Source of the DNA: Chloroflexota bacterium
GTDB lineage: Bacteria; Chloroflexota; Anaerolineae; Anaerolineales; Villigracilaceae
Direction: 5' to 3'
DNA length: 37,808 nt
Assembly: GCA_021787595.1 (NCBI GenBank)
Contig: JAJYLQ010000031.1
Coordinates: forward strand, 1-37,808
Shown here: positions 28,848 to 37,808 of the stretch, in pieces
How the letters are laid out: each line of letters opens with the position of its first letter
Numbering within the stretch: the first letter of the stretch is position 1
The notes under the pieces: model-generated
Database searches by the model: none
Seen by the model: the letters and a program-made list of their open reading frames with translations, nothing else
What the model was told of the DNA's origin: nothing
Position numbers and translations under genes: made by a program

Positions 28848-30227
28848 TCAAAGCTGCCCGCTCTCGCCCAAAAATTCCAATTGCTTTTGATATTCGGGAT
28901 CATCATAACGCGCCAATGAAAACGCGGCCGCGTATGATGGCAATGTCGTCCCTGCGATGTGAGCCGCGAGCAAATCCCCTGCCCCGCACGCGGACATGAT
29001 CCCGTAACCGGACGCCGCGCCGATCACGTACGCACCTTCGACCGGCAGCGGCCCAACCAACAGACGATTCTCGCGCGTCCGGGTGTAATAGCCGCCGTCG
29101 AGTTGCGGCTTCGGCATCTTGTTGAAATACTGTTTTAGCGCGGGCAGCATCGCTGACATGCCGCGCATGGCAATCTCTGGATATTGATCGTCGAGCGGCG
29201 TCGGGAACGTCGGCTCGATGAGGCGCGTCTTGTACTCCCACAACATCAAAATCGTCTGGCTGTCGCCCGCGCCTTCAGGACGTGTGTGCGCGCCCGCGGG
29301 AAACGGCTCGGTCAACCATTTTGTTTCGTCGTCGCTGGCAAGCGCTTCGCGTTCATCATCCATCCATGGCAATAATTGCGGATCATCCCAAATCAACAGC
29401 GGCGCATCGCGGCCAACAATTCCAAGCGAATCTTTGAACGCGACCTTCAAATGCAATTCGGTGTAAACAGGAATTTCAACGCCGAGCATTTTGCCAACTT
29501 GTTTAAGATATGGCCCCGCGGCATTGACAAAGATCGGACATTCGACGCGTTCGCCATTGCTCAGCTTGACACCGGCGACGCGATGGCTGGTCACATCAAC
29601 ACCATCCACGCGCGCCGATTCAAACTCGACGCCGAGGCGGCGCGCCGTTTCGAGGAGAACCATGCCCATCTGTTGAGCGCTCAGCCAGCCTGCGCGTCGG
29701 GCGTGTAACGCGGCAACGGCTTTATCGGTCAAATAAGGAAAATATTTTCGGATGAGTTCGCCGCCAAGCAAAATGTCCGCACCGGGAGGTTCGTCACGAA
29801 AACCTTCGGGACGCGCAGGTTGGTATGATGAATTGTCCGACAAATGAATTCTCAATTGTCCCGCGCCCAAGCTTGGAGCGGCGCCCTGAGCGAGTCGAAG
29901 GGTCCGGTTTGAACGCTCGATCAAATTGGGGATTTTGCTTTCGTCCGCGGTCACGTACAAATAGCCGCGTCGGTTCATGTGGAAGACATTCCCGCTTTCG
30001 TCGGCGAGCTGCTCCATCAAATCAATCGAGCGATTCATCAGCGCCAGCATCCCGGCATCGGGCCACCAGTTGCGATAACATTCCGTGGAACGGTCGCTGG
30101 TGAGCGTAAGCGGCGCGTGTTCATCCACCAATAAAATATCCTTGACGCCGGCCCTGGCAAGATAATACGCCGCGCTGACACCGAGAATGCCCGCGCCGCA
30201 AAGGACGACTTGATGCCCGCGCGTCAT
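28848..30227 (-). CDS. FAD-dependent oxidoreductase (DAO/sarcosine oxidase type)
   Basis: A 459-residue flavoenzyme that probably oxidises a primary or secondary amine or amino acid. The Rossmann FAD motif is at the N-terminus (VVLCGAGILGVSAAYYLARAG), followed by the acidic ribose-binding end (LLVDEHA). The C-terminal FAD loop reads YVIGAASGYGIMSACGAGDLLA. Residues about 105-120 (RTLRLAQGAAPSLGAGQ) are encoded by a dispersed palindromic repeat inserted in frame (29884-29902). The active-site loop should tolerate it, but this is unproven. It overlaps the stop of the glutaredoxin gene (ATGA), so the two are coupled. Substrate unknown. Confidence 0.88.
   Translation of the reverse strand: MTRGHQVVLCGAGILGVSAAYYLARAGVKDILLVDEHAPLTLTSDRSTECYRNWWPDAGMLALMNRSIDLMEQLADESGNVFHMNRRGYLYVTADESKIPNLIERSNRTLRLAQGAAPSLGAGQLRIHLSDNSSYQPARPEGFRDEPPGADILLGGELIRKYFPYLTDKAVAALHARRAGWLSAQQMGMVLLETARRLGVEFESARVDGVDVTSHRVAGVKLSNGERVECPIFVNAAGPYLKQVGKMLGVEIPVYTELHLKVAFKDSLGIVGRDAPLLIWDDPQLLPWMDDEREALASDDETKWLTEPFPAGAHTRPEGAGDSQTILMLWEYKTRLIEPTFPTPLDDQYPEIAMRGMSAMLPALKQYFNKMPKPQLDGGYYTRTRENRLLVGPLPVEGAYVIGAASGYGIMSACGAGDLLAAHIAGTTLPSYAAAFSLARYDDPEYQKQLEFLGESGQL
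29884..29902. repeat. Dispersed palindromic repeat inside the FAD oxidoreductase gene
   Basis: CCCTGAGCGAGTCGAAGGG, an imperfect palindrome. CCCTTCGACTCGCTCAGGG-type sequences are, from general knowledge, very common dispersed repeats in environmental bacteria. Here it lies inside a coding frame without breaking it and encodes the LRLAQGA-like peptide. Confidence 0.7.
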
Positions 30228-30487
30228 GATTGGAATCTTGCGGTTAGCTCATCCGATGACGGCTCGACCATTTTCGAACCGTCGGGAAATAGAATGGTTG
30301 GAACGCTGCGAAAGCCGTCGTTGAGCTGTTTGACGAATTCGGCGGCATGCAGGTTTTCATCAATGTCAATGTTGATGTGGGGAATTTGATTCTGCGCGAG
30401 GAACGCTTTGGCGCGTTTGCAGTCGGGGCACCACTTTACGGAATATACTACGATTTGAGTTGGACGATCAGTGCAGCAATCTGTCAT
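30224..30487 (-). CDS. Glutaredoxin-like protein (CPDC type)
   Basis: An 87-residue thioredoxin-fold reductant. The active site is WCPDCKRAKAFL (Cys20, Cys23), followed by the NIDIDE strand and the cis-Pro segment SVPTILFPDG. This is the mycoredoxin/NrdH-like group rather than classic glutaredoxin. The start at 30487 has a GAGG ribosome site; a longer in-frame ATG at 30505 does not. Two extra cysteines follow the initiator Met (MTDCC). It is about half identical to the first 90 residues of the Grx-TrxR fusion at 30699-31916, so the two are recent paralogues. It couples to the FAD oxidoreductase gene. Confidence 0.9.
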   Translation of the reverse strand: MTDCCTDRPTQIVVYSVKWCPDCKRAKAFLAQNQIPHINIDIDENLHAAEFVKQLNDGFRSVPTILFPDGSKMVEPSSDELTARFQS

Positions 30488-30509
30488 GTTGACCTCGTTG
30501 AGCAATCAT

Positions 30510-30550
30510 CCGCAGATTACACAGATTCACGCAGGAGAAAAAATCTGCGG
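30510..30550. repeat. CCGCAGATT-type inverted repeat
   Basis: CCGCAGATT at 30510-30518 pairs with AATCTGCGG at 30542-30550. The inner part CGCAGATTACACAGATT is a repeat widely seen in environmental genomes; a related GCGGATTACACGGATG fragment occurs near 32121-32139. Confidence 0.55.
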
Positions 30551-30577
30551 AATTAGCTTGAGTTTATTTGGGTGAGG

Positions 30578-30607
30578 CGCGTCGAGCGAGGTATTATCTC
30601 GCTCGAC
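30578..30607. repeat. Second copy of the GCGRGATAATA palindrome
   Basis: GTCGAGCGAG (30581-30590) and CTCGCTCGAC (30598-30607) form a perfect 10-bp stem around GTATTAT. Its reverse complement matches the efp-leader palindrome (15224-15240) over the core GCGRGATAATAYCYCGCTC. Confidence 0.7.
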
Positions 30608-30654
30608 CGCGTGTCTGCAATGAATTATCGCATGAGCGGCCTGCGAAGGCAAAA

Positions 30655-30686
30655 ACAAATGGCACGATTCGATCCCTGCCATTTGT
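30655..30686 (-). terminator. Rho-independent terminator of the Grx-TrxR gene
   Basis: Perfect 10-bp stem ACAAATGGCA / TGCCATTTGT with a 12-base loop. On the minus strand it is followed by TTTTTGCC, 13 bases beyond the stop codon. Confidence 0.85.
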
Positions 30687-30698
30687 CATTGTTTGAGT

Positions 30699-31916
30699 CT
30701 ATTCGCCGAGCGATTTCAGGTATTCGCGGATTGCCAGCGCCGCCGACGCTCCCTCGCCCGCTGCAGATGCCGCCTGCTTGGTCGAGCCGGAGCGAACGTC
30801 GCCCGCCACAAACACGCCGGGGATGCTCGTCATCATGTGCGGCGCTTTGACGAAGCCGCGTTCGTCGAGTTCAGCTTTTTCTTCGAGCAGATCATTGTTG
30901 GGCATCACACCAATGAAAACAAAGACGCCATCGTAATGAGCCTCTTTTTCTTCGCCGGTTGACAGGTCTTTCAAGATAACCGCTTCCAACTTGTTTTTGC
31001 CACGCAGCTCGCGGATGGCGTGATTCAGAATCACGCGCATGTTCGATTTTTCCGCGACCTTTTCCCGCAGAATTTTGCTGGCTTTGGGTTCCGGCGAATG
31101 GACGAGGATGTCCACTTGCGATGCGAATTTGGTCAGGAATAAGCCTTCCTCGAATCCGCTGTTGCCGCCGCCGACCACCAGAATCTTCCTGCCTTTATAA
31201 AAGGCGCCGTCGCACGTGGCGCAGAAATGCACGTTGACACCGATCAATTCGTCTTCGCCGGGGATGTTCATGCGGCGATAACGCGCGCCGGTCGCCAGCA
31301 AGATCGCTTTGCTGTGATAATGCGCATCCGAGCCAGTCTCAGCGAAATGATACTGGCCGTCATGGTCAATCGCATTGACTTCCTGCGCCTGCAAGATTTC
31401 CACGCCGAACTTGCGCGCCTGGCGTCCGAGGCGTTCGGCAAATTCTCCGCCGGAGATTCCTTCGTCGAAGCCGGGAAAATTATCCAGCGTTTGCGTGATG
31501 CCGGCCTGCCCGCCGAGTCCCGCCTTCTCGATGACCAGCACATCGAGTCCTTCACGCGCCAAATACAAGGCGGACGTCAAACCTGCCGGTCCGCCGCCGA
31601 TCACGATCGTGTCATAATAAGAATGCCGGGCGCTGGTTTTAAGTCCAAGCTTTTGCGCAAGCTGCGCGTTGGACGGCTCGACCAGAATCCCGCCGTCGGG
31701 GAAAATAATGGTCGGGATGACACGCTTTCCATCATTGATCTTTTCGACGAACGCCACGCTCTTCGCATCTTCGTCAATATCCACATTGTTGTATTGAACG
31801 CGCTGCTCGCCGAAGAATTTCTTGGCGCGTTTGCAGTCCGGGCACCAGACCGCGCCGTAAACCATGATGGAGGAAGGCTTCAAATTATAAAGGTCGCCGC
31901 TTGTTTTCCGCGCCAT
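30699..31916 (-). CDS. Glutaredoxin-thioredoxin reductase fusion
   Basis: A 405-residue cytosolic flavoprotein joining an N-terminal glutaredoxin domain to thioredoxin reductase. Residues 1-92 carry WCPDCKRAKKF (Cys25, Cys28) and VIPTIIFPDG. Residues 100-405 are TrxR: FAD motif GGGPAG (107-112), redox pair FCATCDG (Cys232, Cys235), NADPH motif GGGNSG (249-254) and the C-terminal VFVAGDVRSG. The fusion should pass electrons from NADPH through FAD and the CATC pair to the attached CPDC site. A ribosome site (GGAGAG) and a clear terminator mark it as a single-gene transcript. Confidence 0.95.
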   Translation of the reverse strand: MARKTSGDLYNLKPSSIMVYGAVWCPDCKRAKKFFGEQRVQYNNVDIDEDAKSVAFVEKINDGKRVIPTIIFPDGGILVEPSNAQLAQKLGLKTSARHSYYDTIVIGGGPAGLTSALYLAREGLDVLVIEKAGLGGQAGITQTLDNFPGFDEGISGGEFAERLGRQARKFGVEILQAQEVNAIDHDGQYHFAETGSDAHYHSKAILLATGARYRRMNIPGEDELIGVNVHFCATCDGAFYKGRKILVVGGGNSGFEEGLFLTKFASQVDILVHSPEPKASKILREKVAEKSNMRVILNHAIRELRGKNKLEAVILKDLSTGEEKEAHYDGVFVFIGVMPNNDLLEEKAELDERGFVKAPHMMTSIPGVFVAGDVRSGSTKQAASAAGEGASAALAIREYLKSLGE

Positions 31917-32211: not shown

Positions 32212-34407
32212 TTAGGGCACAACCAGCCCTTGAATCTCTCCATGTACATCGGCCGAGATGAAAGCCTCACAATTTTCAGGTTGGAAGATTACTACAGTGC
32301 GTTCATCGGTATTCGATTGTGCCAGGCTCACGCCCAACCACTTTCCATCTGTGCTCCAGACAATGCTGGAGATCGCCTCTGCCGGTCTATCCACAACAAG
32401 ACGACGTTCAGAACCATCTATACGCATCAGGTAGATACTGCTATTCCCGCTGTCCCGGTACGCAACCCATGCTCCATCCGGTGAGACAGTTGCATAGGGC
32501 GCTTTGTGCGACGAATCTTCGAGCACGAACAAATCCTGCAATTTACCAGTTGCAACATCCACCGCCTGCAACGTGAAACCGCGTGCGTCAGGTGTTGCGA
32601 TATACAATTTTTCTCCATCAGGTGACCAACCAGCCAGCGCGAAGGTAATTGAGTTGATTGGGATATGTCGTGGGTTGGAGCCATCCAGACCGATAATGTT
32701 GAGGTTCCTGTTATCCACATTCGCAACGAGTTCACCATCCGGCGATATGTGTGGATCGTATCCGGTTGCACCCGCCAATATCCCATCCTTGTCAGTGGCC
32801 AGGTCCACAATATGGAGATTGCTATCTGCACCAGAATAAACCACTTCCTTGCCATCTGGAGAAAAGGCTGCCCAGTTTCCTCGCAGCGCGACAGTTTGAT
32901 TTTGGCCCCCATTGATATTGGTAAGGTACACACCCCAATTTATACCGTCCAGTGATTCGTATGACAATACCTTGCCGGACAAACCGGTTGGAATCGGCGC
33001 AAGCTTCTGTAGTGTAGTGCTCGTCAGGCAAGCTATGTTTGGCGTCGCGGATGCTGTTGCTGGAGCAGGAACGGGCGAAACGCTGGGTTGCCATGTAATC
33101 GACCATGGGCCTGATATGCGAACAGACTGGACCGCTACAACTAGCGTCAATTTGCCCGAAGGTACAGCACCCTCAAAAACGTTGCTCTGATTGAAATTTC
33201 CCTTTCCATCGCCTCCACCGCCACCACCAGATGCACTGAACCCCTTGATCCATACACCCACTCCAGTGACACGCGGATCTGCCTTAAGCTTAAACTTGTA
33301 ACCATCCGTCAAACGCTGGATGGACGACAGCGTTATATGATAACCATTTGATACAAGATCCTTGTTCAGAATCCAATTTTGATTTATCTGCGGATTGGGG
33401 CCGGTATTGAAATCCAGTTTGACCTCATCCACTGAAGGCAACCCGGCATTGACAAAATCAACTGTGATAGTCAGTGGCCACGCCTGCTGCCTGCCTTTGA
33501 TTTCATAAGCCCACGTCGCCTCACCCGTCTGGTTCGAAATGGCATCTACATCGTTGGGAACAGTTGTGAAGACTTCATTTCCATTTGCATCGGTAATTCT
33601 TATTCGTGAAATTGAACCCAGTGTCATGCTGCTGGCAGGTAATGCCGTCGAATTGAATTTGCCAATCAAGATATAGCCGTCCTGTGTTTCGATGATCTTG
33701 TCCAAAGATAAAGGCCGGGAACTCGAATTTGGCGCGCCTTCACTCGATGCAGGTGATGGCGAAATCTCTATGATTGGCATCACGGTCAGATTTGCTGGCG
33801 CAGGAATGAAGCGCAACTGCAATGCCCAACTTCCGGGTAATACATCCGGCAGCGTGCCGGAAATGCAGGGCAGGTCAAAAGTAGCCTGGTTAACGTTGGC
33901 AGGAATGGCAGAAAAAACAGCCTTACTTTCATATCCTGTTCCCCAACCGCCACCGCCGCTGGAGAACAACAAGCTTGTTCCATCTGGAAGAAGCAGTTCA
34001 GGCGTTTTGTTGCAGCCGAGGACGCCTTCGCTCGCAGAATAGGCATCCACCGGAATGCCCTCGATCTTGTAAAGCACCACAGTTTTGTCAGTGCTCAATA
34101 CGACTTGCTCAACGGTAACTGTGACACCATTGCGCGTTTGTGTAACAGGTCGGTCAAGGACACGCAATGGGGCGCCTCGTTCAATAATGCCTACGCCGGG
34201 GATAAAACCGAGCATATTACCTACTGCGTAGGCTACACCAGTTAGCGACAAAAGAATAAGGACGACCATGAGTATGATCAGAGCTGGCCGGGCGCGAAGT
34301 GCATAAATCAGAGAATTCCTTTTCTGCAAGCGCGCTTCGATGCGCGGCCATAAATCAATGTCGTCCGGCACACCGCGGCGAGCGATTCTTTCCAGTGCGT
34401 CTTTCAT
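32212..34407 (-). CDS. Membrane-anchored anti-sigma-like protein with TolB-type propeller
   Basis: A 731-residue protein. Residues 1-40 (ALERIARRGVPDDIDLWPRI) would be cytoplasmic and could bind the sigma factor. One membrane helix spans about 41-64. The outside part begins with a DUF4179-like beta domain (NGVTVTVEQVVLSTDKTVVLYKI) and continues through further beta modules. The last 230 residues hold at least five PD40 repeats (FSPDGKEVVYS, ISPDGELVA, WSPDGEKLYIA, VSPDGAWVAY, WSTDGKWLGV) that should build a propeller. The start at 34407 lies 7 bases after the sigma-factor stop; a longer frame to 34473 overlaps that gene and is less likely. The position and topology suggest an anti-sigma role. 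The ligand is unknown. Confidence 0.8.
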   Translation of the reverse strand: MKDALERIARRGVPDDIDLWPRIEARLQKRNSLIYALRARPALIILMVVLILLSLTGVAYAVGNMLGFIPGVGIIERGAPLRVLDRPVTQTRNGVTVTVEQVVLSTDKTVVLYKIEGIPVDAYSASEGVLGCNKTPELLLPDGTSLLFSSGGGGWGTGYESKAVFSAIPANVNQATFDLPCISGTLPDVLPGSWALQLRFIPAPANLTVMPIIEISPSPASSEGAPNSSSRPLSLDKIIETQDGYILIGKFNSTALPASSMTLGSISRIRITDANGNEVFTTVPNDVDAISNQTGEATWAYEIKGRQQAWPLTITVDFVNAGLPSVDEVKLDFNTGPNPQINQNWILNKDLVSNGYHITLSSIQRLTDGYKFKLKADPRVTGVGVWIKGFSASGGGGGGDGKGNFNQSNVFEGAVPSGKLTLVVAVQSVRISGPWSITWQPSVSPVPAPATASATPNIACLTSTTLQKLAPIPTGLSGKVLSYESLDGINWGVYLTNINGGQNQTVALRGNWAAFSPDGKEVVYSGADSNLHIVDLATDKDGILAGATGYDPHISPDGELVANVDNRNLNIIGLDGSNPRHIPINSITFALAGWSPDGEKLYIATPDARGFTLQAVDVATGKLQDLFVLEDSSHKAPYATVSPDGAWVAYRDSGNSSIYLMRIDGSERRLVVDRPAEAISSIVWSTDGKWLGVSLAQSNTDERTVVIFQPENCEAFISADVHGEIQGLVVP

Positions 34408-34414
34408 AAAGTGG

Positions 34415-34996
34415 TTATTCACTTTTGCTGCCCTTATCCACGAGCAGGACACGCAAGCGTTCACGCGCTGCATTTAGCAGCCACTTGATTGTGCCGGGAG
34501 CAGCCTTCAGTTCTGTCGCCATCTCTTTCTCACTCATTTCCAGAAAGTACCTTTGCACGATCACTGCCCGCTGACGCGGTGACAACTTCTGCATTGCATC
34601 CCAAATCTGCTGGCTGTTTTCGAGAGACATCACTTGTGATTCCACAGATTCCATCTGCGCGGTCAACTGTGCGAAAGCCTCCTCTTCCGTGCCATCATCC
34701 CCCAGTTGAACCTCTTTTAAAGTCTTTTTCATCGCTCTCACCGCGGCATGTACGACACCTTGTAAAAACCAGGGCCCGAACGGCCGTGCTGAATCGAAAC
34801 TACGCATAGAATGATAAACTCCGAGGAAGGCATCCTGCACAACGTCCTCGGCCAGTTGCAGGTCATGGGTTATTAAATAGGCCGTGCGAACAGCCCTGAC
34901 CTGATAGTTTTGGACTAAGACCTCCAGCCCGACGGCTTCGCCGTGCTTCAAGCGCCGGATAGCCTCCCGCTCATCCAAACGTCCATCCTCTTCCAT
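34415..34996 (-). CDS. ECF-type RNA polymerase sigma factor
   Basis: Alternative sigma factor of 193 residues with regions 2 and 4 only. Region 2 is VRTAYLITHDLQLAEDVVQDAF (residues 36-57) and onward; region 4 is LSPRQRAVIVQRYFLEMSEKEMA with the recognition helix AAPGTIKWLLNAARERL (138-181). The linker is long (about residues 93-130) and acidic. It begins 4 bases after the stop of a lipoprotein gene and is followed after 7 bases by the membrane protein, the usual order for sigma/anti-sigma. No ribosome site is seen, but TAAAAT ends six bases before the ATG. Confidence 0.92.
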   Translation of the reverse strand: MEEDGRLDEREAIRRLKHGEAVGLEVLVQNYQVRAVRTAYLITHDLQLAEDVVQDAFLGVYHSMRSFDSARPFGPWFLQGVVHAAVRAMKKTLKEVQLGDDGTEEEAFAQLTAQMESVESQVMSLENSQQIWDAMQKLSPRQRAVIVQRYFLEMSEKEMATELKAAPGTIKWLLNAARERLRVLLVDKGSKSE

Positions 34997-35000
34997 TAGC

Positions 35001-36137
35001 TTATTTTAAGCTGATTTCCACAAACCACGAGCCAACGATTGTTCGTATGAAGGCAGATTTCACCAACGTATAAGCATCCTCTGCTGACATGTCAGATGGG
35101 CGGGAAATTACCTCGAACCAGTGTTGTTGCTCACCCCGCAATTTGAATTCGATGCAGTGGATTTTGAGGCCCGGATGCAAAACCTCCATAGTTTGCTTCA
35201 CGCTTTCACAGTCCTGCATAGTGACCAAGCCAGAATCGGTATTGTCAATTTGCACTTGGTTGATCCCCGCGCGGAACGACGACGCTGAACCAAGCGGAAA
35301 AGCAAAAGGAATAGTGAAGGAATAGCATCTATGTGTACTCTGAAGAGTCGTATTGCGATCAAAGGGAAAGGGATAGGTAGGCAGCCACTCAGTGGAGTAA
35401 GCCTCCTGGCTATCATAGATCAATTCAGCCGTGGGCCTCCAGAGATGATGATCCTGAGTTTCCAAGCAGGCATCCAGCCAGGTGACGGATGGATTCACGG
35501 TTATTTTTTGGATCTGTACGGCGACCGCCTGGTCTTCGATCTCACTGGAGGGAAACCGGGTTAAATTCTTGGCAGCCGGCTGGAATTGCAATGGGATATT
35601 GTAAGCCCCCGCTGCTGGAAGCGTTATTGTAGAGACAGAGTTGGTCGCCCTCACTTCTCCCAGTTCCAGGCTCAAGCTGAGCGGTCCATTAAGTTTAGGG
35701 GCCAACCCAGCCTGATAAAAGTGAGACAGACTGAAAAGATAATCTGCAAAGCCATCGCCTTCTGCCTGTTTTGAGCAATACCAATAGTTATTTTGAGTTA
35801 ACGCGTAGAACTCATTCAACTCAATTTGATCGGGATTCCGATATAGTAACAAGTTATTGTCGGCGCTCTGGATTTCGAGTTGGGTGAGCGGGCAGCGCAA
35901 CCGGAATCCCCGCGGCACGGGATAATGCTTAATCGAGACCTCCATTGCAAAACGACTTTGGTCTTGATAGGTCCACTCGATCTGAACCTGAAGGTCTTCA
36001 CGGGCGGGGTTGTACATACCGCCCGGCGACCCGGAAGCAGTCTCTCTAACAGGTGAAAGAGAAGAGCAAGCTACTCCTGCCAAGCAGAATACGCCACCAA
36101 TAAGTAACCTCAAGAATTGCACACCTAAGCGAAACAT
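35001..36137 (-). CDS. Lipoprotein of unknown function with conserved C-terminal module
   Basis: A 378-residue exported lipoprotein. The start at 36137 is followed by a signal peptide with lipobox LAGVAC (Cys24); an upstream in-frame ATG at 36203 would place extra residues before it. The mature part is beta-rich, without a family I recognise. The last 110 residues (from HRCYSFTIPFAF to IVGSWFVEISLK) match the fragment at 37345-37692, and the last 60 match the end of the lipoprotein at 36151-37260. It lies 13 bases after that gene and 4 bases before the sigma factor, so all are one transcript. It may be a sensor or target of the sigma circuit. Confidence 0.75.
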   Translation of the reverse strand: MFRLGVQFLRLLIGGVFCLAGVACSSLSPVRETASGSPGGMYNPAREDLQVQIEWTYQDQSRFAMEVSIKHYPVPRGFRLRCPLTQLEIQSADNNLLLYRNPDQIELNEFYALTQNNYWYCSKQAEGDGFADYLFSLSHFYQAGLAPKLNGPLSLSLELGEVRATNSVSTITLPAAGAYNIPLQFQPAAKNLTRFPSSEIEDQAVAVQIQKITVNPSVTWLDACLETQDHHLWRPTAELIYDSQEAYSTEWLPTYPFPFDRNTTLQSTHRCYSFTIPFAFPLGSASSFRAGINQVQIDNTDSGLVTMQDCESVKQTMEVLHPGLKIHCIEFKLRGEQQHWFEVISRPSDMSAEDAYTLVKSAFIRTIVGSWFVEISLK

Positions 36138-36150
36138 TGCCGGAACCCCA

Positions 36151-37260
36151 TCATTTGATCGTAAGCGTCCAAGGGCCATAAATCGCCTGTTCGATGGTAT
36201 CAAAAATGATTTGCTGAGCCTTCTCCCTCGTCATCCCGTCCGGCAGTTGCAAATTGGTGTAATACCCAGCCCCGCTGAAATTGCATTGGAAATCCAGTCC
36301 GGGGTATTTTGCGATGAGACCGGGTTTGGCGGCTTGGCAGGCATCATTCGGAGCACCAGGTGGAGGCGCCATGCGAAGGGCAGTATCAATCGAGAGCACG
36401 ATATGTTGAGCTTGTTCGAGCTGTGCCGCGCTAACTTGATATTTCATGAAATAACAGCCCCAAGGTTGGATGCTCCCGCCATCTAGGAAAGGCGCTGGCT
36501 CTTGATCGATGAGCAAGGACGGAGCAGGAGACCCCAGCGAATAATAGCGATTAGGCACCGTCATGCAAAAATCTATCGTGGCACTCTGGGCATCGTGCGT
36601 GAAACTCGTCAATGTAGTCGTGATGCCGTTAGCTGTACCGCCGCCTCCGGCAGCCACAAGATTGCAGGGTTGACCAGAGTCGCAGACCATGATTTTTACC
36701 CAAACACTGTTTCCTCCACCTACCTGTACGGTTTCGCCATATTCGTTCTTGAGAGACCAATAGACAGTATAGGTGCCTGGCGTGGTCGGCGCGGTCAGTG
36801 AGACCGAAATGCTAACGGTTTGGCCGGGCGGCGTTTCCTGTGAAAGATTGATTTGTGAAGGGCCGCCAAGCGCGTTTGGGGTAGCCGGGTCCAAGACGAG
36901 AGCATACGATGTCGTCCAAGTTGCGTTGCCAATGTTTTTTAGCTCGAAGGTTTTGTCGAACTTCTCGCCTGGCTTGAGCGTTGAGTTATCAGGGTAATTC
37001 TCACTCACAAACGCGGCTCGGTCAGTTGTCGTTGGCAGGTAAGTCGAAGTCGCAGGGATCGGTGTAGGTGTGAACGGTACTTCCGGTGTGGATGTTGTAG
37101 CCGGGACAATAGTGGGAGAGACCAGAACAGTAGCCGTGGCCTCCGTTGTAGAACTGGCTGTGGCCGTAGGAGGGGTTTGATTCGTCACGGAACAACCAGC
37201 TATCAATGTAAAGGCAAGGAGACACCCCAATCTAAGCCTATTTGTAAGTGCGGAGTTCAT
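36151..37260 (-). CDS. NBR1-Ig-like lipoprotein of the sigma-factor operon
   Basis: A 369-residue exported lipoprotein with lipobox LIAGC (Cys23). A Thr/Pro/Ser-rich linker spans about 25-80. An Ig-like domain of the type found next to BRCA1 in NBR1 follows (FVSENYPDNSTLKPGEKFDKT onward, NIGNATW, TPGTYTVYWSLKNEYGETV, residues 83-190). The second half is beta-rich and ends with the module LPDGMTREKAQQIIFDT ... GPWTLTIK. The ribosome site AAAGGA supports the start. This is the first gene of the series lipoprotein-lipoprotein-sigma-antisigma, and lies just after a strong terminator. Probably surface-exposed; ligand unknown. Confidence 0.82.
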   Translation of the reverse strand: MNSALTNRLRLGCLLAFTLIAGCSVTNQTPPTATASSTTEATATVLVSPTIVPATTSTPEVPFTPTPIPATSTYLPTTTDRAAFVSENYPDNSTLKPGEKFDKTFELKNIGNATWTTSYALVLDPATPNALGGPSQINLSQETPPGQTVSISVSLTAPTTPGTYTVYWSLKNEYGETVQVGGGNSVWVKIMVCDSGQPCNLVAAGGGGTANGITTTLTSFTHDAQSATIDFCMTVPNRYYSLGSPAPSLLIDQEPAPFLDGGSIQPWGCYFMKYQVSAAQLEQAQHIVLSIDTALRMAPPPGAPNDACQAAKPGLIAKYPGLDFQCNFSGAGYYTNLQLPDGMTREKAQQIIFDTIEQAIYGPWTLTIK

Positions 37261-37298
37261 TTCGTCCTTTCAGATCAATCTTTACGAGAAAGAAAAAC

Positions 37299-37330
37299 TG
37301 TCTGTGGAGGATGGTTATCCTCCACAGACA
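37299..37330 (-). terminator. Strong hairpin terminator before the lipoprotein-sigma operon
   Basis: A perfect 14-bp stem with a 4-base loop, followed on the minus strand by GTTTTTCTTT. It ends the fragment at 37345 and leaves only about 38 bases before the next start codon, so the operon may rely on regulated read-through or a compact promoter. Confidence 0.85.
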
Positions 37331-37344
37331 ACCAGATACCACCC

Positions 37345-37692
37345 CTATCTCAGTTCAACATCGGTCTGCCAGTTTCCAGGAATTTCATCCATGGAAGCCT
37401 GCTGGATCAACTGGATGGCTTGCGCGTCGCTCATTCCTTCCGGCTTGGAGAGAAGCTGAATATAGGCGCCACCACCGCCCTTGCCACTCCTGACAACAAC
37501 TTGGAAATCCAATTGTGGCTGGTCGCGATGCAAGCGGGCTTTGGCCGCAGCTGCACCAATATCGGTTAACAATCCTCCACCTACCTCCAGCGAGAGTTTT
37601 TCGAGTTTCAACGTTCCAACTGGGGAAACACTGTTTGCCGCCGACACGGGGAAAGTGAACAAAAAGCAGCGGGTCTGGGACTTCGGTGTCAC
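37345..37692 (-). pseudogene. Truncated paralogue of the 35001-36137 lipoprotein
   Basis: An open frame of 115 codons from a GTG at 37692. Its sequence aligns end to end with the C-terminal 110 residues of the lipoprotein at 35001-36137 (TRCFLFTFPVSAANS against HRCYSFTIPFAF; PEGMSDAQAIQLIQQA against PSDMSAEDAYTLVKSA; GNWQTDVELR against GSWFVEISLK). The N-terminal two thirds and the signal peptide are missing. In-frame TAA lies about 20 bases upstream of the GTG. It is therefore most likely a decayed fragment, although a short secreted-less product cannot be excluded. A terminator follows it. Confidence 0.65.
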
Positions 37693-37808
37693 CGCAGTTA
37701 AGCGTGGTTAGGTGGCCCATTGTTGAATCGAGTGAAGCCTAGCGGCCGAAGGTCTGCCGCGTCGAACAGGCGGCTTCCAAGGCGGAGGCGGCACCTTGAA
37801 TGCAAATA
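37693..37808. other. Junction sequence at the right window edge
   Basis: No gene is supported. It contains GTTAGGT (37707-37713), which has the form of an integron attC core, and an imperfect GAAGCC/GGCTTC inverted pair. A full attC cannot be folded from what is visible. The sequence is unrelated to the missing part of the lipoprotein paralogue. Confidence 0.4.

Follow-up and report, generated by a model that had tools for sequence, protein, structure and literature searches.

A domain shared by lipoproteins encoded next to an ECF sigma factor gene in Anaerolineae resembles the ectodomains of DUF4179-type anti-sigma factors

Background

The extracellular domain of BAS1627, an extracytoplasmic function (ECF) anti-sigma factor of Bacillus which is a DUF4179 protein of the ECF30 family, is described as structure 3FBQ in PMC6066255. 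RsiV is presented in PMC8844934 and PMC6066255 as both a lysozyme receptor and an anti-sigma factor, in which lysozyme binding triggers cleavage and the release of the sigma factor. Here we analysed a 37808 bp stretch of DNA (the window), which is an entire contig, C12, of the 4.08 Mb genome of a bacterium of the class Anaerolineae, phylum Chloroflexota. At its right end three adjacent genes, A, B and C, lie next to an ECF sigma factor gene and encode a common domain, named MOD in this study, which is predicted to have the fold of the BAS1627 ectodomain.

RsiV served as a working model, in which ligand recognition by the ectodomain of a DUF4179 anti-sigma factor triggers proteolysis. A and B differ from BAS1627 in being lipoproteins without a sigma-binding part. 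Since both A and B start with a signal peptide followed by a lipobox, and the start of C is lost, the three were not filed as anti-sigma factors, which would have an N-terminal sigma-binding part and a transmembrane (TM) segment joined to the ectodomain (in the fused relatives described below, the TM segment lies near residue 50). B also resembles the bacterial proteins with an NBR1 immunoglobulin-like (NBR1-Ig) domain (PF16158), and its N-terminal and Ig part matches many other places of the genome, but among the contigs with those matches MOD was found only on C12 and C3. Secreted DUF2690 (PF10901) proteins are neighbours of stand-alone MOD genes, yet they form a separate family. The literature searched gave no description of the MOD domain, which is not proof of absence. 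The ECF anti-sigma ectodomains are thus a known kind, and new as far as searched are the variant with an insert, the free-lipoprotein and LuxR-type forms, and the pairing with DUF2690.

Results

The first-pass annotation of this DNA had described two lipoproteins and a fragment with the same C-terminal pattern, beside a sigma/anti-sigma pair. All three frames are present at their positions on the minus strand, and the order on that strand is the C remnant, B, A, the ECF sigma factor and the inferred anti-sigma factor, as follows.

37345..37684, minus strand: gene C, surviving 3' part of the first gene of the cassette, of the stand-alone MOD type (MOD profile positions 58-169; clusters with first-position genes)
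36151..37260, minus strand: gene B, lipoprotein with an NBR1-Ig domain and MOD (lipobox LIAGC by eye; PF16158, E = 4.4e-18; MOD profile)
36685..36999, minus strand: NBR1-Ig domain of B (residues 88-192, PF16158)
36154..36636, minus strand: MOD domain of B (MOD profile)
35001..36137, minus strand: gene A, probable lipoprotein (lipobox GVAC, weaker than the LIAGC of B)
35559..36026, minus strand: domain 1 of A, resembling the first sandwich of fused anti-sigma ectodomains (hhalign)
35004..35528, minus strand: MOD domain of A (MOD profile; modelled)
35052..35219, minus strand: predicted alpha-beta-beta-alpha insert in the MOD of A, containing the GMS-type helix (model residues 107-162)
35010..35042, minus strand: predicted final beta-strand of the MOD of A, the GxW strand (model residues 166-176)
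34415..34996, minus strand: ECF sigma factor (TIGR02937, E = 5.7e-26), beginning 4 nt past the stop of A
32212..34407, minus strand: inferred anti-sigma factor with a TM segment, DUF4179-like sandwiches and a beta-propeller (PD40, 26 bits; cut-off 20.9)
33034..34227, minus strand: modelled all-beta ectodomain of the inferred anti-sigma factor (top structural match 3FBQ)

The C-termini of A, B and C are homologous. When the last 100 residues were aligned locally with BLOSUM62, the scores were 59 (A/B), 71 (A/C) and 65 (B/C), against maxima of 41, 43 and 41 in 1000 shuffles per pair, and 0/1000 shuffles reached any pairwise score; for full-length A versus B, one shuffle in 1000 attained the score. 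A profile of 73 homologues (the 80-row alignment minus the seven rows of the window's genome) found B (E = 1.9e-33), A (1e-31) and C (4.6e-21), and the full MOD profile matched 0 of 10730 shuffled open reading frames (ORFs). The shuffle test, the confident fold model and the profile matches across genomes contradict a chance motif of lipoprotein tails, and we give that explanation almost no probability. The shared ending noted first is therefore real, although the shared part is larger: the homologous region is the whole domain of about 170 residues in A and B, of which C retains positions 58-169. As for the two lipoproteins, the lipobox of B is clear by eye and that of A is weaker, and C is a remnant without an N-terminus. 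The genome has eight MOD matches, namely three on C12, three on C3, one on C8 beside tyrS and one on C32. Searches of A, B and C with Pfam, NCBIfam and PHROGs gave only matches below the cut-offs, apart from the NBR1-Ig domain of B (66.3 bits; cut-off 28).

No Pfam family matched MOD in any of the 80 members at E 0.01, and the DUF4179 family matched 0/80. The AlphaFold (AF2) model of the MOD of A (predicted local distance difference test score, pLDDT, 92.7; predicted template modelling score, pTM, 0.79) has seven strands in residues 5-97, a helix at 107-120, strands in 125-145, a helix at 152-162 and a strand at 166-176, so the predicted fold is a beta-sandwich with an alpha-beta-beta-alpha insert ahead of the last strand (GxW). 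The motif noted first maps to the second helix of the modelled insert (xGMSxxxAxxLI) and to this final strand. The sandwich cysteines C24 and C71 are present in 77/80 and 80/80 rows, respectively. The insert cysteines are present or absent in pairs (both in 60 rows, neither in 18, one alone in 2), as for a disulfide outside the cytoplasm. From this conservation and co-occurrence, C24-C71 and C110-C128 (numbering of the A domain) are predicted to be the disulfides.

Among 999 realigned chains of the PDB, 3FBQ ranked first for the MOD of A (Z 9.3, root-mean-square deviation 2.5, 101 aligned positions; next Z 7.8), with MOD aligned within chain residues 158-291, and it also ranked first of 997 chains for the modelled ectodomain of the window's anti-sigma factor (pLDDT 86.1; Z 8.6, next 7.3). 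MOD differs from the BAS1627 ectodomain in having the inserted unit, and the two are 9% identical. These models suggest, at a moderate Z, that MOD shares the fold of the 3FBQ ectodomain (DUF4179/ECF30-type). In an hhalign comparison, domain 1 of A also aligned over 42 columns with the first sandwich of the fused anti-sigma ectodomains, at a probability of 61 (E 8.2e-5). Sequence searches of the PDB gave best E values of 0.051 with the anti-sigma profile and 0.45 with the MOD profile.

Fusions of MOD in relatives decide the same placement more clearly. At eight loci (L062, L064, L065, L132-L135 and L146; L numbers denote loci) a C-terminal MOD lies on an ORF that abuts or overlaps the gene of an ECF sigma factor, and these ORFs have a hydrophobic segment beginning at residue 43-56. 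Two sandwich copies are present in 6/8 of them; in L064 and L132 the earlier copy runs directly into GDWQFSW or GPWEFTW without the insert, and the last copy has it. A sample of 396 genomes across the class had MOD matches in 41, including 14 outside the order Anaerolineales, so a restriction of MOD to the order was rejected. In the 14 out-of-order genomes there were 16 loci, of which 14 had the match in the C-terminal part of an ORF adjoining an ECF sigma gene; five of these matches span the whole model and nine only its first part, some weakly, among them L228 and L229 of one genus (weak matches, model positions 2-33). In the three out-of-order sequences inspected (L221, L222, L224) the insert is absent and GDW or GPW follows directly after the sandwich. 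The insert-free sandwich with GPW in fused anti-sigma factors indicates that the sandwich belongs to anti-sigma ectodomains and that the insert is an addition. With the fold and the fusions taken together, we consider the placement of MOD with the DUF4179-type ECF anti-sigma ectodomains highly probable.

In a sample of 301 genomes of the phylum, no MOD match was found outside the order, and this sample is the sole basis for a restriction to the class Anaerolineae. The searches of large samples capped the candidates scored in each genome (at 12 for the phylum, 9 for the class and 22 for DUF2690), so that the counts are lower bounds. One fusion is of another kind: L083:1071-2549 (plus strand) combines a LuxR helix-turn-helix, a TM segment, NBR1-Ig and MOD in one protein of 493 amino acids, a membrane one-component regulator. 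A LuxR-Ig-MOD copy at L085:4134-5607 (plus strand) is split over two frames. At L057-L061, L063 and L066, the ORFs are 704-716 amino acids long (559 at a contig end) and have a WD40-like beta-propeller after MOD; they form one clade of the tree described below. Outside the order, L218:1460-7926 (plus strand) has two successive pairs of a sigma factor and an anti-sigma factor with MOD, then two MOD ORFs of 402 amino acids in tandem.

The first-pass annotation suggested a tandem duplication as the origin of the three neighbours, which the adjacency of three paralogues would suit. We reconstructed a tree of 134 MOD domains, which leaves out rows covering fewer than 100 model positions, near-identical copies and the majority of the duplicate loci from the window's genome. 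In this tree A grouped with third-position genes (a 6-row clade, 100/99), B among the Ig-MOD genes, and C with the first-position genes of L126, L110 (the L127 locus), L067, L128 and L130 (6 rows, 95/69, not starred), a clade which with the addition of L112 has values of 100/89 and is starred. L067 (family f1), L126 and L127 (f13) and L128 (f12) have the full series of stand-alone, Ig-MOD and A-type genes in this order on one strand, and L068, L069 and L130 have part of it. Each gene is thus closer to its positional counterparts in other families than to its neighbours, and the order is conserved; this placement and the order recurring in three families indicate that the window cassette is an old unit, inherited or moved as such, and it is very improbable that a single gene was recently duplicated in tandem at this place. 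Domain hits, length and assignment by hand decided which rows were labelled stand-alone, A-type, propeller or fused; the A-labelled rows L072, L073, L096, L136, L140 and L156 fall outside the 6-row clade and are not counterparts of the window's A. In alignment A4, L074, L075, L174, L179 and L200 were initially skipped, L074 and L075 were then added in cut form, and L171 (the window's own) and L196 were omitted. At L129:5333-8753 (minus strand), four tandem MOD ORFs stand behind one DUF2690-like gene.

The expectation that MOD is always found next to ECF sigma factors did not hold. A sigma gene lay within 5 kb of 19/107 MOD genes, and eight of these 19 are the fused anti-sigma ORFs. By type, the counts were 8/8 for the fused ORFs, 7/17 for Ig-MOD, 2/7 for propeller-MOD, 1/10 for A-type, 1/62 for stand-alone (C of the window itself), 0/2 for LuxR-Ig and 0/1 for a fused-like ORF at a contig edge. 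The expectation was calculated from TIGR02937 counts (202 ECF-model matches in 38.1 Mb), and the sigma model, built from relatives of the window's sigma factor, may miss distant ECFs. For Ig-MOD genes, 7/17 compares with 1.0 expected (P = 2.9e-5); the counts were 6/16 without the window (P = 2e-4) and 5/15 with the two loci of one genome counted once (P = 1.3e-3), and since the choice of loci was ours, the P values are indicative. The stand-alone count is not above the expectation of 3.5.

The association of MOD genes with DUF2690 is stronger than that with sigma genes. A DUF2690-like gene, whose small secreted product has four invariant cysteines, lies directly upstream in 34/59 of the stand-alone MOD genes that are not beside tyrS and in 0/27 of those beside tyrS, when genes with less than 400 bp upstream and no DUF2690 match are set aside (six stand-alone genes). 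PF10901 matched 18/25 of the neighbour genes (E 0.01, best 1e-9) and left 7/25 unmatched. Across 201 genomes of the order, a profile built from MOD-adjacent genes gave 32 matches, and each had a same-strand MOD gene no more than 1 kb away, with 31 of the matches upstream of it; in two of these pairs (G172:C79 and G157:C59) the MOD match is weak. Since such a profile is circular, the search was repeated with the PF10901 of Pfam, and 17/17 matches lay within 1 kb upstream of a same-strand MOD gene; the MOD places for this comparison came from a separate search with the same sampling request. Two further pairs were found in other orders (L219, L220), and a DUF2690-like gene precedes the first cassette gene in L067, L069, L126 and L127, with a partial frame in L128. 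The window has no DUF2690 gene, and a sequence search of the PDB with DUF2690 gave no match at E 1. In the window's genome, two DUF2690-like secreted proteins (L014:276-752 and L014:1670-2155, minus strand) flank the stand-alone MOD gene of C32 (L014:919-1716). A MOD lipoprotein beside tyrS (for example, L020:138-824, plus strand) recurs in many genomes of the family, and a scan of genome contigs for the tyrS-adjacent lipoprotein gave five relatives (two Chloroflexi, two Anaerolineae and one Anaerolineales).

Two more features belong to the right end of the window.

37296..37333, minus strand: intrinsic-terminator-like hairpin between C and B (17-bp stem and T run)
37685..37808, no strand: end of the multicopy repeat truncating gene C (identity at six contig ends)

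The contig ends with a 124-bp exact repeat, which is present at six contig ends (119 bp are 100% identical on C44, C34, C30, C26, C18 and C12), and the identity ends at 37685, or at 37682 in one copy. The GTG start of the C frame (37692) falls inside the repeat, so that C is not an intact gene but a dead remnant cut by the repeat, and the repeat interrupts both the assembly and the cassette. The hairpin search found one hairpin against a shuffle mean of 1.2, so that only its stem length (17 bp) is notable. With start codons of our choice (ATG 36137 for A, in a frame open to TTG 36203, and ATG 34407 for the anti-sigma factor), the gaps between B, A, sigma and anti-sigma genes are 13, 4 and 7 nt, and these genes look like one operon. 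As for the sigma/anti-sigma pair of the first-pass annotation, the sigma factor was confirmed by TIGR02937 (91.1 bits; cut-off 42.9), and the anti-sigma factor is identified by inference from its position, TM segment and ectodomain; the MOD profile did not match it. Further along, at 30224-31916 (minus strand), a glutaredoxin-like ORF was seen by eye beside a glutaredoxin/thioredoxin-reductase-like fusion.

Discussion

MOD is best regarded, on balance, as the outer sandwich of ECF anti-sigma factors with an insert, and A and B as surface-tethered recognition lipoproteins that would influence sigma release; we consider this explanation as a whole reasonably probable. MOD itself would be a surface recognition module for something extracellular, and the first suggestion of a diversified sensor or ligand-binding domain is upheld to the extent that the fusions with anti-sigma factors and with a LuxR-type regulator support a diversified extracytoplasmic domain tied to ECF signalling. 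By analogy with RsiV, MOD in the fused anti-sigma factors would act as their receptor end. In the window it is carried instead by A and B (B with an Ig spacer), next to an anti-sigma factor which has a beta-propeller and no MOD; A and B would bind a ligand outside the cell and affect how that anti-sigma factor, through proteolysis, releases the sigma factor. For the stand-alone relatives, the candidate partner would be the secreted DUF2690 protein encoded just upstream. Fusion in one genome and a common operon in another are classically read as evidence that functions are shared. The fusions in relatives and the operon placement here thus speak for an accessory role of A and B as recognition lipoproteins in the sigma/anti-sigma pathway, a sensing role to which we assign slightly less than an even chance.

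Several results weigh against this explanation. The Z of 9.3 to 3FBQ is moderate, and Foldseek gave no PDB match at E <= 0.001, with 3FBQ outside the 50 matches listed. The hhalign comparison of MOD with the family of the window's anti-sigma factor gave probabilities of 3.7 and 13.7 (E 0.011 and 0.002), so that the link is carried by the fold and the fused relatives. The fused label was given to the eight ORFs by hand once their loci had been inspected, and their 8/8 is no independent count; the A-type and stand-alone genes are not enriched near sigma genes, the single case of each being the window's own. Among 28 fetched loci with an anti-sigma factor of the window's type, one had MOD, as a fragment of 69 amino acids, which suggests that such anti-sigma factors mostly have no MOD partner. 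A further place of this type, G144:C2, is the L137 locus and has an Ig-MOD gene; four weak places were not fetched.

The operon-like placement with the sigma gene would also suit A and B as products of the regulon: lipoproteins made on release of the sigma factor which protect the envelope, for instance by inhibiting an extracellular enzyme that attacks it, with MOD as a common stressor-binding domain. The lack of a nearby sigma gene for most stand-alone MOD genes and the scarcity of MOD beside window-type anti-sigma factors (1/28) are consistent with this, but the fusions of MOD with anti-sigma factors and the LuxR type (L083) indicate that it can serve in sensing, and we consider such a purely protective role unlikely. 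MOD may also recognise the secreted DUF2690 protein, as a signal/receptor or toxin/immunity couple whose DUF2690 gene the window cassette would have lost, perhaps through the repeat insertion. The adjacency of every DUF2690 match to a MOD gene in the order (17/17 and 32/32), the additional pairs and the DUF2690-like genes ahead of other cassettes argue for such a couple; against it, two of the 32 pairs are weak on the MOD side, the tyrS-adjacent genes (0/27), 25/59 of the other stand-alone genes and the genes of the Ig, propeller and fused types have no such neighbour, the region upstream of C lies off the contig, and co-occurrence is not binding. From gene order we regard this couple as possible though improbable. 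DUF2690 as the ligand of the stand-alone branch is likewise a tentative candidate, compatible with either a sensor or an effector reading of MOD. We would also give a rather low probability to the broader view that Anaerolineae have a movable recognition domain, the tip of an anti-sigma ectodomain with the alpha-beta-beta-alpha insert, exchanged among anti-sigma factors, membrane LuxR regulators and free lipoproteins, with the secreted DUF2690 protein as its cognate ligand.

Conclusions

The sharing of MOD by A, B and C, when in relatives it is the tip of an anti-sigma factor, suggests that receptor parts of anti-sigma factors have split off and been reused as separate surface proteins. A domain without a Pfam match is hereby placed in ECF anti-sigma signalling by fold and gene fusion, and it is linked by gene neighbourhood to DUF2690, a family of unknown function. 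If the broader view holds, the movable MOD and its DUF2690 ligand would constitute an undescribed protein-based system of surface signalling.

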